From the NCBI GenBank assembly GCA_021796905.1, contig JAKABK010000027.1:1-11044 (forward strand): a stretch of 11,044 nucleotides of DNA, read 5' to 3'. The notes below the pieces were generated by a model. The model worked only from the letters and a program-made list of their open reading frames with translations. It did not search any database and was not told where the DNA came from. Shown piece after piece: positions 3,119 through 7,586 of the stretch; the first letter of the stretch is position 1, and the number at the start of each line of letters is the position of its first letter. The position numbers and the translations under genes were made by a program. This stretch comes from Actinomycetes bacterium (GTDB lineage: Bacteria; Actinomycetota; Acidimicrobiia; Acidimicrobiales; Palsa-688).

Positions 3119-3176
3119 CGGACCCCGGACCCGGTCCGGACCCCGGACCCCGGATCCGGTCCGGACCCCGGACCCC
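3119..3176. repeat. GC-rich tandem repeat with GGTCCGGACC palindromes in the tmsA/kynU divergent promoter region
   Basis: About 58 bases are built from the 7-mer GGACCCC and its variants. The perfect 10-bp palindrome GGTCCGGACC occurs twice (3133-3142 and 3158-3167), exactly 25 bases apart, and each copy is followed by the same CCGGACCCC run. CCGGACC to the left can also pair with GGTCCGG, so several alternative hairpins are possible. It lies between two divergent genes and upstream of the kynU -10 candidate. It could be an operator array, a topological element or a slippage-prone simple repeat. No function is shown. Confidence 0.6.
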
Positions 3177-3217
3177 AGAACCCGGAACCCGAAGCGTGCT
3201 GAGCGGGTCGTCCCGGG

Positions 3218-3230: not shown

Positions 3231-4475
3231 GTGGCCAACCCGCCGGCGACCCGAGAGGACGCAGAGGCCCGGGACCGGGCCGATCCGCTGGCGGGACTGC
3301 GGTCCCGTTTCGCGCCCGACGGCGCCGGAGCGATCTACCTGGACGGCAACTCGCTCGGTCGCCAGCCGGTCAGCGCGCCCATCCGGGTGGCGTCGGTCCT
3401 CGAGGAGTGGCGTACCCGACTGGTCGGAGCGTGGGAGGAGTGGATCGATCGCCCGGCGATGGTCGGAGATCGGATCGGGACCCTCGTCGGTGCCGGTCCC
3501 GGGCAGGTGGTCGTATCCGATTCGACCACCGTCAACCTCTACAAGCTCGCGGCGGCAGCGCTCGACGCGCGACCCGACCGCAGCGTGATCCTCGCAGATC
3601 ACCATGACTTCCCGACCGTCAGGTACGTGCTGCAGGGCCTGGCCGAGCGCACCGGGCGGGAGCTGCGCTGGGTGGACAGCGACCCGAGGGAGGGTTGCGC
3701 AGCGCCGGAGGTCACCGGCGACGTGGCTCTCGTCTGCCTCTCGGGGGTCAACTTCCGCTCCGGGGCCCTCCTGGACATGCGGGCAGCGGCCGCCGGAGCC
3801 CACCGGGCCGGTGCGCTGGTGCTGTGGGACCTGAGCCACGCCGCCGGGTGCGTGCCGGTCGACCTCGACGGCGACGGTGCCGACCTGGCCGTCGGGTGCA
3901 GCTACAAGTACCTCAACGGCGGGCCCGGGTCGCCGGCGTGGCTGTATGTCCGCCGGGGGCTCCAGTCGGGGCTCCGCCAGCCGATCTGGGGGTGGTGGGG
4001 CCAGGAGGACCAGTTCGCCATGGCTGAGCGCTACCAGCCCGTCGCGGGCATCGACCGGTTCCAGGCCGGCACCCCTCCCGTCGTCGGACTGGCAGCCGTC
4101 GACGCCGGGATCGAACCGCTGCTCGAGGTCGGCATCGGCTCGCTGTGGGCCAAGACCTCGGAGCTGGTCTCGATGCTCGCCGCGAGGGTGGAGGCCCGTC
4201 TCGTTCCCCTCGGCGCCAGGATCGCCAGTCCCACCGACGCCTCCCGCCGAGCCGGGCACCTGGCAGTAGCCCACCCCGGCGCCTGGCCGGCGGTCCGTCG
4301 CCTGGTCGATTCCCGCCAGGTGGTGGCCGACTTCCGGCCACCGGATGTGATGCGCCTCGCCCCGGTCGCCGCCTACACCCGCTTCGTCGACGTCTGGGAC
4401 GCCGTCGAGCGGATCGCCGGGGTCCTCGCCGAAGGGGAGCTCACCGGGTCGGTCCCGATCCGGCGAGTGACCTGA
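3231..4475 (+). CDS. kynU: Kynureninase
   Basis: This 414-residue fold-type I PLP enzyme cleaves L-kynurenine to anthranilate and alanine (or 3-hydroxykynurenine to 3-hydroxyanthranilate) in the cytoplasm. Visible motifs are YLDGNSLG (36-43), the DSTTVNLYKL phosphate-binding region (97-106), DHHDFPTVRY (123-132), VLWDLSHAAG (197-206) with the cofactor-contacting Asp200, CSYKYLNGGPGSPAW (223-237) with the Schiff-base Lys226, and IWGWWGQEDQFAM (252-264). Length is normal for the family. The open frame extends further upstream, but that part is Pro/Gly/Arg-rich and runs through the repeat and tmsA. The GTG at 3231 gives a family-like N-terminus (ADPLAGLRSRFA) and a leaderless promoter spacing. 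It is the first gene of an operon: the ECF gene starts one base after its stop. No other kynurenine-pathway gene is present in the window, so whether it serves tryptophan breakdown, NAD synthesis or anthranilate supply is open. Confidence 0.93.
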   Translation: MANPPATREDAEARDRADPLAGLRSRFAPDGAGAIYLDGNSLGRQPVSAPIRVASVLEEWRTRLVGAWEEWIDRPAMVGDRIGTLVGAGPGQVVVSDSTTVNLYKLAAAALDARPDRSVILADHHDFPTVRYVLQGLAERTGRELRWVDSDPREGCAAPEVTGDVALVCLSGVNFRSGALLDMRAAAAGAHRAGALVLWDLSHAAGCVPVDLDGDGADLAVGCSYKYLNGGPGSPAWLYVRRGLQSGLRQPIWGWWGQEDQFAMAERYQPVAGIDRFQAGTPPVVGLAAVDAGIEPLLEVGIGSLWAKTSELVSMLAARVEARLVPLGARIASPTDASRRAGHLAVAHPGAWPAVRRLVDSRQVVADFRPPDVMRLAPVAAYTRFVDVWDAVERIAGVLAEGELTGSVPIRRVT

Positions 4476-4476
4476 G

Positions 4477-6702
4477 GTGCCCGAACAGGCCGGCTGGCCC
4501 ACCCCACCGGGCGGCGGCGGGGACCGGGCCCCCACCCCGTCGGGGCCGTTGCAGCCGGTGGAGCTGGCTACCGCCTCGGTGCTCGCCGGGGTGACCGTGA
4601 TCCTCGTGCTCGCTGGTTGGTTGATCCCCCACGCCAGCGGCCTGATCGGTCTGGCCGTCGTCCCGATGGCGGTCGTCGCCCACCGTCACCGCCCGAGGGC
4701 GGTGGTGGCGTCGACAGTCGCGGCGGTGACCGTCGCGTTCCTCGTCGCCGGCACCGGCCCCGTCCCCACCGTCGCGCTGTGCGCAGCGGTCGGTGGCATC
4801 GCCGGCCAGGCGCACCGCCGGCAGTGGCGGTGGCCGGCGGTCCTCGGAGCCGGCCTGGCCTGCGGTCCCCTGTTCGGAGCGGCAGCGGACCTCGCCCTGG
4901 TCGCCTTCGGGCCCCTGCGGCGTCTCACCATCCGCAACCTGCGCGACAGCTGGGACGGCTACGCCCGACTGGTGGGCACGATCCGGCCGCTGCGAGCCTA
5001 CCTGCGGCCGGTCACCCGGGTCGTGCACTCGTCCCTGCACCTGTGGTGGGCGTTGATCCCGGCAGTGATCGCCGTGGTGACCGTGGTGGCCACCTGGACC
5101 ACCTGGTACTACATCCGGGGCCTGCTCAGACGTCTCGACCGGATGCCTGTCGAGGACCGGCTGGCCCCACCCCCGGAGGAGACGACCAGCCGGCGGGGCG
5201 GAGCCCACCGGGAGAATGTCGCGCCGCCCGGACCGGTGCCGGTCGCGTTCGAGGAGGTGAGCGTCCGGTACCCCGGGGCGTCGGTCGATGCCCTGGCCGG
5301 AGTCAGCCTCCGGATGTCTCCCCGGGAACGGACGGTGGTCCTCGGACCCAACGGCTCGGGCAAGTCGACCCTGGCCCGGGTCCTGGCCGGGCGCGCCCCG
5401 AGCTCGGGGCGGGTGGTCCGACCCGGCCCGGTCGGTCTCGGACGGCCGGGGGGTACCGCCTTCGTTTCCCAGCAGCCCGAGAGCCAGGTCCTCGGGGTGC
5501 GTGTCGCCGACGACCTGGTCTGGGGGCTTCCCGCCAGCTGGCAGGTGGACGTCGACGCCCTGCTCGACACCGTCGGCCTGTCCGGCCTGGCGGCCCGGGA
5601 GACCTCGACGCTCTCCGGTGGCCAGCTCCAGCGGCTCGCTCTCGCCTCCGCGCTAGCCCGGCGTCCTTCTCTGCTGATCGCCGACGAGGTCACCGCCATG
5701 GTCGACTCCTCCGGTCGCGAAGAGATCGTCTCCCTCCTCGCCCGCCTCCCGGCGGACCACGGGGTCTCGGTCGTCCAGGTCACCCACCGTCTCGAGGAGG
5801 TCGCCGGCGCCGACAGTCTCCGCTGCCTCGATTCCGGCCGGCTGCTCGCCGCCCCCCGGCTCCTCCCCGCGGACCCGGCCGGCGCGACCAGCGCCACGGT
5901 CCGCTCCGCCGCGAACCCCACCCCCGCCGCCGGTCCCGGCGGGCATCCCGGGCGCCCGGGGTCCCGGGGCGGCGAGGCGCTGCTGGTAGCGGACCGGGTG
6001 AGCCACACCTACGCCGACCGCACCCCCTGGGCCCAGACCGCCCTGCGGGGAGTGTCCCTGTCGGTGCGGGCCGGGGAGGGACTGCTCGTGGTGGGCGACA
6101 ACGGCTCGGGCAAGACCACCCTCGCCTGGGTGCTCGCCGGGTTGTTGCGTCCGACGGAGGGGGAGTGCCGGCTGCGGGGAGCACCGGTGCACCGACAGGT
6201 CGGATCGGTGGCGCTGGCCTTCCAGCACGCCCGCCTCCAGGTCCAGGCGGCGACCGTCGGCGCCGACGTCAGGGCCGCTGGCGGTGTCGACCGCAGCGCC
6301 GGGGAGGAGGCCCTCACCCGCCTCGGCCTCGACGCCGAGCTGCTGTGGGACCGTCCGGTGGACACCTTGAGCGGGGGCCAGCTGAGGAGGGTCGCCCTCG
6401 CCGGGCTCCTCGCATCCGACCCCGAGGTGCTCCTGCTCGACGAGCCCCTCGCCGGGCTCGACGCGGAGAGCCGGGACGCGTTGCTCTCCGCCGTGGCCGA
6501 CCTCCGCAACCGGCGGGGTCTGACCGTGGTCGTGATCTCCCACGACTCGGAGGCCGGCGTGGTCTGCGACCGGGTCGTTCGTCTCGAGCGCGGCGAGGTC
6601 GTCGAGGACCTACCGCAGCGAGCCGGCGCCGACGATCCGCTGGCGTCCCGGCCGAGCCCGACCGGTCCGCCGGGCACCTCCATCCCCGGTGCAGCACGAT
6701 GA
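4477..6702 (+). CDS. ECF transporter fusion: S-like membrane domain plus two ABC ATPase domains (EcfA-EcfA')
   Basis: This 741-residue protein has three parts. Residues about 30-212 form a membrane domain with some six hydrophobic segments (about 30-50, 53-69, 74-92, 95-110, 120-146, 188-212), the size and topology of an ECF substrate-binding S component. NBD1 has Walker A GPNGSGKST (290-298), Q-loop SQQPES, signature LSGGQ (379-383), Walker B LLIADEV (399-405) and H-loop His437. NBD2 has Walker A GDNGSGKTT (540-548), LSGGQ (631-635), Walker B with Asp655-Glu656 and H-loop His689. Both sites look catalytically intact. A Pro/Gly-rich linker joins the ATPases. ECF systems import vitamins or trace nutrients across the cytoplasmic membrane. 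The S-AA' fusion next to a T gene resembles, as I recall it, M. tuberculosis Rv2326c/Rv2325c. The GTG start lies one base after the kynU stop with no clear ribosome binding site, implying translational coupling. Substrate is unknown. S-component identity rests on topology and context, not a binding motif. Confidence 0.85.
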   Translation: MPEQAGWPTPPGGGGDRAPTPSGPLQPVELATASVLAGVTVILVLAGWLIPHASGLIGLAVVPMAVVAHRHRPRAVVASTVAAVTVAFLVAGTGPVPTVALCAAVGGIAGQAHRRQWRWPAVLGAGLACGPLFGAAADLALVAFGPLRRLTIRNLRDSWDGYARLVGTIRPLRAYLRPVTRVVHSSLHLWWALIPAVIAVVTVVATWTTWYYIRGLLRRLDRMPVEDRLAPPPEETTSRRGGAHRENVAPPGPVPVAFEEVSVRYPGASVDALAGVSLRMSPRERTVVLGPNGSGKSTLARVLAGRAPSSGRVVRPGPVGLGRPGGTAFVSQQPESQVLGVRVADDLVWGLPASWQVDVDALLDTVGLSGLAARETSTLSGGQLQRLALASALARRPSLLIADEVTAMVDSSGREEIVSLLARLPADHGVSVVQVTHRLEEVAGADSLRCLDSGRLLAAPRLLPADPAGATSATVRSAANPTPAAGPGGHPGRPGSRGGEALLVADRVSHTYADRTPWAQTALRGVSLSVRAGEGLLVVGDNGSGKTTLAWVLAGLLRPTEGECRLRGAPVHRQVGSVALAFQHARLQVQAATVGADVRAAGGVDRSAGEEALTRLGLDAELLWDRPVDTLSGGQLRRVALAGLLASDPEVLLLDEPLAGLDAESRDALLSAVADLRNRRGLTVVVISHDSEAGVVCDRVVRLERGEVVEDLPQRAGADDPLASRPSPTGPPGTSIPGAAR

Positions 6703-7586
6703 CCGCAGCGCCGGGCGACACCCGGAGCCAGGACCGCTCCGGCGCGGGTGTCGGCGGGGAGGTGCCGGCCAGTGGCGCCACGACCCCGCCGGTCCGGCCA
6801 CGCCGGCGCCGCCGGGAGATCGTCCTGCTGCGCCGGGTCGAGGTCGACAGCCCGGTCCATCGTCTCTGGGCGGGGACCAAGCTCCTCGCGGTCGTCGCGG
6901 TGAGCGTCACCGTCTCCGAGGACCCGACCTGGGCCGTCGCCGGGGTGCTGGCGGTCGCTCTCCTCGCCGTCGGCCGCCTGGCCCGCATCCCGTCGGCCGC
7001 GGTCCCCCGGCTCCCGGTCTGGGTGTGGATCGGCCTGGTCGCCTTCGCCGGCTTCTCGCTCGCCGCCGGCGGCAAGCCCTACGTCCATCTCGGCGGCGCC
7101 CGCCTCGGGCTCGGGGACCTCGGGCTGTACGCCCTGATCCTCGTCGTCAGCTTCGAGCTGCTCGCCGCCGCCGCGCTCGTCGGCTGGACCACCGCCCTCG
7201 GCGACGTCGGTCCCGCGGTCGCCACCCTCGGTCGTCCGCTCAGGGTCCTGCGCCTGCCGGTCGAGGAGTGGGCGGTGGCGGTGGCGTTGTGCGTGCGCTC
7301 GCTCCCGTTGCTCGTCGGCGAGATCCGGGTGCTCATCGCCGCTCGACGGTTACGCCCCAAGCCGTCCGGTCGGAGCCTCACCCGTCTCGCCGACGACGGT
7401 CTGGAGGTCCTGGCGACCGCGGTCAGCGTCGCGGTCCGTCGAGCCGCCGAGATGGGAGAGGCGATCACCGCCCGGGGAGGCGTCGGGGAGGTCACCGCCC
7501 GGGTGGCCGGGCCCGCTCGACGTGACCTGGTCGCGCTGGCGCTCGTCCTGGTCGTCTGCGGCGGGGTGTGGCTGCTGCCTTCGTGA
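6699..7586 (+). CDS. ecfT: ECF transporter transmembrane coupling protein EcfT
   Basis: This 295-residue protein is the T component that joins the S domain to the two ATPases. After a roughly 40-residue Arg/Pro-rich cytoplasmic head comes SPVHRLWAGTKLL (51-63), the typical EcfT entry motif. Hydrophobic segments follow at about 61-72, 77-92, 105-124, 141-166 and 188-207, with a last helix at 277-294. The two ATPase-contacting motifs are present: AARR (214-217), a variant of the usual Ala-Arg-Gly, and TARGG (257-261). The ATG start overlaps the stop of the ATPase gene as ATGA (6699-6702), a sign of translational coupling and fixed stoichiometry. It ends the kynU operon and converges on the flavin oxidoreductase gene with only 22 bases between stops; no obvious terminator hairpin was seen there. 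Confidence 0.88.
   Translation: MTAAPGDTRSQDRSGAGVGGEVPASGATTPPVRPRRRRREIVLLRRVEVDSPVHRLWAGTKLLAVVAVSVTVSEDPTWAVAGVLAVALLAVGRLARIPSAAVPRLPVWVWIGLVAFAGFSLAAGGKPYVHLGGARLGLGDLGLYALILVVSFELLAAAALVGWTTALGDVGPAVATLGRPLRVLRLPVEEWAVAVALCVRSLPLLVGEIRVLIAARRLRPKPSGRSLTRLADDGLEVLATAVSVAVRRAAEMGEAITARGGVGEVTARVAGPARRDLVALALVLVVCGGVWLLPS

Follow-up and report, generated by a model that had tools for sequence, protein, structure and literature searches.

The stretch of DNA analysed here (hereafter, the window) is an 11,044-base sequence that constitutes one entire contig; the genome is fragmented, with 422 contigs and a completeness of 75%. It contains three genes arranged head to tail on the plus strand: kynU, which encodes a kynureninase; a gene for a single protein in which an S-like domain is fused to two ATPase domains of the energy-coupling factor (ECF) type (S-EcfA-EcfA'); and a gene for the transmembrane protein EcfT (Table 1). 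The kynU stop codon ends at 4475 and, after a gap of 1 base, the fused gene begins with GTG at 4477, the sole in-frame start found upstream of residue 22 of the fused protein. The stop codon of the fused gene (6700-6702) overlaps the ATG of the EcfT gene at 6699 in the form ATGA. The open reading frames and junctions confirm this part of an earlier note on the same DNA, which had described an S-like domain fused to two intact ATPase domains, followed by EcfT, with a 1-base gap to kynU and an ATGA overlap.

Table 1. Genes and domains of the kynU-importer locus (positions in the window)
Feature	Position	Strand	Size or residues	Evidence and remarks
kynU, kynureninase	3231..4475	+	414 amino acids	Upstream neighbour of the importer, found in this genus only; PF22580, 79.2 bits (cut-off 27); PF00266; 1qz9
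Fused ECF protein S-EcfA-EcfA'	4477..6702	+	741 amino acids	Pfam, NCBIfam, motifs
S domain	4549..5139	+	about 25-221	DUF2232; predicted S-component-like fold
First EcfA domain	5245..5850	+	257-458	Best NCBIfam model TIGR04520, 267.7 bits (cut-off 315, thus below); motifs
Second EcfA domain	5992..6609	+	506-711	TIGR04521, 259.7 bits (cut-off 330, thus below); 4hlu_A
EcfT transmembrane protein	6699..7586	+	295 amino acids	PF02361; 4huq; ATGA overlap with the S-EcfA-EcfA' gene

Composition of the importer

Both ATPase domains have intact motifs, with P-loops starting at residues 290 and 540, LSGGQ at 379 and 631, and Walker B strands starting at 399 and 651. The top-ranked NCBIfam models are ECF_ATPase_1 and ECF_ATPase_2, each scoring below its cut-off, and the second domain matches the solved structure 4hlu_A over residues 507-711 (E 1.9e-31). 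The EcfT protein matches PF02361 with 73.1 bits against a cut-off of 25, and its best solved match is the EcfT of 4huq (E 1.9e-10); no NCBIfam model matched it. Thus, two EcfA domains with intact motifs and an EcfT protein, as expected of an ECF transporter, are present.

The S domain matches Pfam DUF2232 (PF09991) with 40.4 bits against a gathering threshold of 27.8, and this is its only Pfam match; all 39 S domains in a wider alignment of related proteins (A3) match the same family at E up to 1. The earlier note had named membership in a known vitamin family as an outcome that would speak against it; the domain falls instead in DUF2232, which is not a family with a known substrate. When the predicted structure of the S domain was compared with solved structures by VIA-align, the ten best rows were all S chains of ECF transporters, including RibU, FolT and ThiT, and they covered most of the domain. 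This result and the complete set of ECF domains speak for a dedicated ECF (type III ABC) importer. Helix 1 also contains an AXXXA motif (ASVLA, residues 33-37), a motif that PMC11109136 links to docking on EcfT when it lies in helix 1 of S; most Nocardia rows of A3 have glycine at these places.

Several results weigh against the assignment of an S component. Foldseek gave no significant match for the S model, and a search with the S profile against the sequences of solved structures returned no S component among its five matches at E up to 10. In addition, the Pfam S-component model PF12822 was touched by only one of the 39 members (E 0.11), whereas Peptidase_U4 was touched by 18 of the 39 (best E 0.0016). 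These results would be expected if the domain were not an S component and the fused protein were some other ATP-binding cassette (ABC) device. However, S-component rows occupy VIA ranks 1 to 10, EcfT and the ECF-type ATPases make up a complete set, and the AXXXA motif is in place, so that we regard another device as very unlikely.

Comparison with known systems and variants of the architecture

The fused architecture is common in Mycobacteriales and widespread in Nocardia and related Actinomycetota; cultured environmental carriers include Acidiferrimicrobium sp. IK and Antrihabitans stalactiti. The DUF2232-S-A-A' proteins of Nocardia and other Mycobacteriales have the same domain order as the window protein, with EcfT behind (80 loci, mostly Nocardia), and P0031, from a Mycobacteriaceae bacterium, likewise combines DUF2232 with two ABC stretches. 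We examined 89 related loci, consisting of 80 kept out of 100 that encode a relative (mostly Nocardia) and nine more; some are the same contig counted twice, and the flank of the 80 loci is at most 8 kb, or less at contig ends. In 82 of the 89, an EcfT match follows at about 1.9-2.4 kb from where the S match starts, and the other seven stop at a contig end. Since EcfT follows S in so many loci, the pairing of S-A-A' with EcfT is more than chance. By contrast, kynU is nearby in only three of the 89, all genus-mates of the window (L170, L171 and L172), whose genomes are metagenome bins.

Some relatives differ in how the domains are distributed over genes. P0011 (which represents 6 sequences on 26 contigs), P0029, L255:5062-8040 (-) and L098:2055-5129 (+) encode proteins of 976-1024 amino acids that each combine EcfT with two ABC domains; DUF2232 is over the cut-off in three of the four, and the S part of L098 was found by tblastn only. 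Judging from these sequences, each may be a complete ECF importer made as one polypeptide. In five members of the order (L250, L252, L258, L264 and L269), the S domain is in a protein of 379-477 amino acids, and a separate gene for 209-238 amino acids, of the same blast cluster, lies between the S protein and EcfT; here, the second ATPase appears to be encoded separately. Fusions of the S component EetB to ECF-T or ECF-A are reported in PMC9973259 and taken there as support for its role.

Compared with the ECF vitamin transporters whose S component has been solved (RibU, ThiT, FolT and PanT), the window system shares EcfT and two ATPases and has an S domain that is predicted to be S-like in fold; however, its S sequence is unrelated to theirs at the Pfam level and is fused to both ATPases. 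TrpP, the tryptophan S component of Bacillota, would be the known case of an aromatic amino acid as ECF cargo. A tryptophan S-component family exists, and no TrpP-type family was among the 18 Pfam families matched at E up to 1 by the 39 members, a search in which weak matches can be filtered out; window-type members and TrpP were not compared directly.

One specific proposal for the cargo, cobalt or another metal, is a special case of the ECF importer assignment. P0031 carries the name cobalt ABC transporter ATP-binding protein, and EcfT belongs to the Pfam family CbiQ. However, CbiQ and CbiO-like names follow from the ECF module common to these transporters, none of the window's proteins matched a CbiM/NikM type domain, and another EcfT/CbiQ gene exists elsewhere in the genome (G000:C9:8961-9497; L311, L314). 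Rv2326c presumably has the DUF2232-S-A-A' architecture. Rv2325c/Rv2326c are listed as the ECF system of M. tuberculosis in PMC7761784, where the table gives no substrate and the introduction speaks of a cobalt transporter; in the parts consulted of the papers naming these genes, the label is at most cobalt (PMC7761784, PMC10468300, PMC8562490). On balance, a metal importer seems highly improbable to us. Literature searches for DUF2232, or for ECF together with kynureninase or kynurenin-, found no paper.

Linkage of kynU to the importer

The gene upstream of the importer is a real kynureninase gene: its best solved match is the kynureninase 1qz9 (E 8.9e-94), over residues 6-399 and hence nearly the whole length, and it scores 242.5 bits with TIGR01814, slightly under the cut-off of 246.4. 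Short GGACCCCGGACC-type repeats were seen by eye at 3120-3190 of the window, between a flavin adenine dinucleotide (FAD) oxidase gene and kynU.

In all four genomes of the genus, kynU lies directly upstream of the importer, with junctions of +1 (window), -8 (L171), -4 (L172) and -4 (L170) bases when the start nearest the kynU stop is used; L171 and L170 have other possible starts. In the L170 copy (L170:4469-5369, genome G164), kynU is matched up to query residue 42 and then, 20 bases further on, again from residue 159, which reflects either an extensive internal gap or a misassembly of this low-coverage contig.

Outside the genus, the adjacency disappears. In the family sample, the S domain was found in 20 of 32 genomes and kynU also in 20 of 32 (E 1e-20). 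Nine of the 16 importer carriers outside the genus have kynU, and in none of the nine are the genes adjacent: in G149 they share one contig about 91 kb apart, and in the other eight they are on different contigs. In the order sample of 148 genomes, the S domain was found in 26 (weakly in G139, E 2.9e-4) and kynU in 54, although many of these kynU matches are remote, at about 28-45% identity, and some may be kynureninase-like enzymes. Thirteen genomes, including the window's own, contain both; in all of the other 12 the genes are on different contigs, giving an adjacency of 0/12. G069 is counted in both the family and order sets. A sample of 296 genomes from the phylum was searched with alignment A1, the Pfam DUF2232 profile being weak on fused proteins at that scale. 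Matches occurred in 14 genomes, with ten clear carriers (the window's own, G209 and eight of family f89) and four weaker matches that were not counted (G240, G294, G315 and G418). Among the ten, kynU was found only in the window's genome and in G438, where it is on another contig. The absence of kynU adjacency in related genomes, which the earlier note had named as an outcome that would refute its idea, is thus observed outside the genus but not within it.

Moreover, co-occurrence of kynU and the importer is not significant at any level. In the order, 13 of the 26 carriers and 41 of the 122 non-carriers have kynU (odds 1.98, p 0.12); in the family, the counts are 13/20 and 7/12 (p 0.72), and in the phylum 2/10 and 93/286 (p 0.51). 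Tight spacing in itself is weak evidence, because of the 190 pairs of same-strand neighbours with a gap of at most 300 in loci L085-L113, 52 are equally tight, at -25 to +5 bases; these counts come from a rough gene caller with approximate starts, which placed the S gene of the window at 4549.

The usual upstream neighbour in the family is dnaE, found in the same direction in 12 of the 16 carriers outside the genus (G169, G168, G155, G156, G157, G150, G149, G137, G148, G069, G173 and G174), with none to four called genes in between, some of them on the other strand; dnaE was not seen in the stretches examined for G172, G154, G170 and G171. As dnaE plainly gives no hint of a substrate and yet frequently adjoins the importer, adjacency is a poor guide here. 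In the genus-mate G163, an LLM monooxygenase, an exchanger and a TraG-like gene are retained on the EcfT side, and kynU and a FAD oxidase gene lie on the other side. In G152, which has no S match and 7% contamination, the end of dnaE lies at a contig end and is followed directly by kynU (L104:59-1869), which thus occupies the spot where the importer follows dnaE in most of the family; about 2 kb after kynU comes a PIG-L gene belonging to the same neighbourhood. Because of the genes kept in G163 and the dnaE-kynU order in G152, an ancestor probably acquired kynU next to dnaE, at that end of the neighbourhood, or this happened on two occasions. In the window's own genome, a dnaE relative is on a separate contig (C96). 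Of the 12 kynU loci retrieved from outside the genus, four (L110-L113) have a cluster c16 gene beside kynU, and the one member scanned (L111) is a tryptophan 2,3-dioxygenase.

These results bear most directly on the proposal of the earlier note that kynurenine, tryptophan, anthranilate or a related aromatic could be the cargo, which on this reading would feed kynureninase. The tight junctions in the four genus genomes would fit such a cargo, as would the tryptophan 2,3-dioxygenase on another contig of the same genome, by which part of the pathway is present, and the somewhat higher frequency of kynU among carriers in the order; an invariant arginine of the S domain (see below) would also suit a carboxylate. 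However, the adjacency is confined to the genus, the co-occurrence is not significant, seven of the eight f89 carriers in the phylum sample lack kynU at E 1e-20, and no tryptophan S-component family is among the Pfam matches of the 39 members at E up to 1. Given these results and dnaE as the usual neighbour, the aromatic cargo is not upheld, and we consider it highly improbable. The same low probability attaches to a narrower version, in which the importer of this genus was recruited to, or always had, a kynurenine or anthranilate cargo and kynU was captured into its operon for that purpose. If true, this version would at the same time identify what the orphan importers in Nocardia and mycobacteria carry.

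Alternatively, kynU and the importer may be co-expressed for a common state, such as the economy of nicotinamide adenine dinucleotide (NAD) or vitamin B6, with a cargo that is not a substrate of kynureninase. The retention of the coupling across a diverged genus favours this explanation. Kynureninase needs pyridoxal 5'-phosphate. One ECF transporter, HmpT, takes pyridoxamine (PMC4860826). However, no recognised gene for B6 or NAD synthesis was among the importer-neighbour proteins scanned (representatives), and no riboswitch was found at the Rfam gathering score in nine related loci, nor in the window with E values of up to 1. Co-expression of this kind is accordingly unlikely, though less so than the aromatic cargo.

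Other sources of clues to the cargo were tried and set aside. The riboswitch search gave, in the window, one match to a miRNA family, which is below the gathering score of 100 (24.8 bits, E 0.45), and, in the nine loci, only three tRNAs and one sRNA. The conserved neighbours, of which representatives were scanned, name no cargo: in the family they include dnaE, a TraG-like ATPase, PIG-L, EamA, a pterin dehydratase, Ddl, sigma and anti-sigma factors and an amidase; in a second set MarR, MFS, PmbA/TldD, a phosphoesterase, an FMO-like protein, cation efflux, AraC and a short-chain dehydrogenase; and in a third MFS, MarR, cation efflux, a kinase, fatty-acid synthesis genes, a helicase and a response regulator. 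Genes for MarR, MFS and cation efflux are common to two of these groups. Plasmid copies were no more informative: four Rhodococcus records match, and both regions read contain a short DUF2232 protein beside a helicase. These are the plasmids NZ_CP103309.1 (L312) and NZ_CP126460.1 (L313), whose DUF2232 genes have 1044 and 1116 bases and no EcfT listed nearby.

Proposed function and implications

Taking the evidence together, we think it likely that the locus encodes an ECF importer for some micronutrient yet to be proven, to which kynU was attached by a rearrangement at the genus level. What the earlier note had reported of the system itself stands, namely that a complete importer with no assigned substrate is encoded in two polypeptides next to a kynureninase gene; the coupling is kept in four of four genus genomes. 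In the mechanism that we propose, the DUF2232 S domain would capture a scarce small nutrient outside the cell and topple in the membrane against EcfT, and the two fused cytoplasmic ATPase domains would power its release inside. The rearrangement would have placed kynU directly upstream, at the spot that dnaE occupies in most of the family, and kynU and the importer probably share a single mRNA.

The most likely cargo would be one general micronutrient unrelated to kynureninase, because importers of the same layout occur in Acidimicrobiia relatives, in Nocardia and in other Mycobacteriales. The conserved positions of the S domain may point the same way. Every one of the 31 rows of alignment A1 has A31, G47, R148, L150 and W190, and all of these except G47 are also invariant in the 39 rows of A3, which overlaps with A1. 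The invariance of R148, L150 and W190 would argue for a single general nutrient, and R148, which a guessed topology puts on the outer side together with L150 and W190, may hint at an acidic cargo.

The genus-level coupling to kynU is a new detail rather than a new kind of system, and the kynureninase gives little indication of the cargo. The survey thus removes a tempting but misleading clue, and the conserved core of R148, L150 and W190, together with the cultured carriers, offers a way to find what this importer carries.
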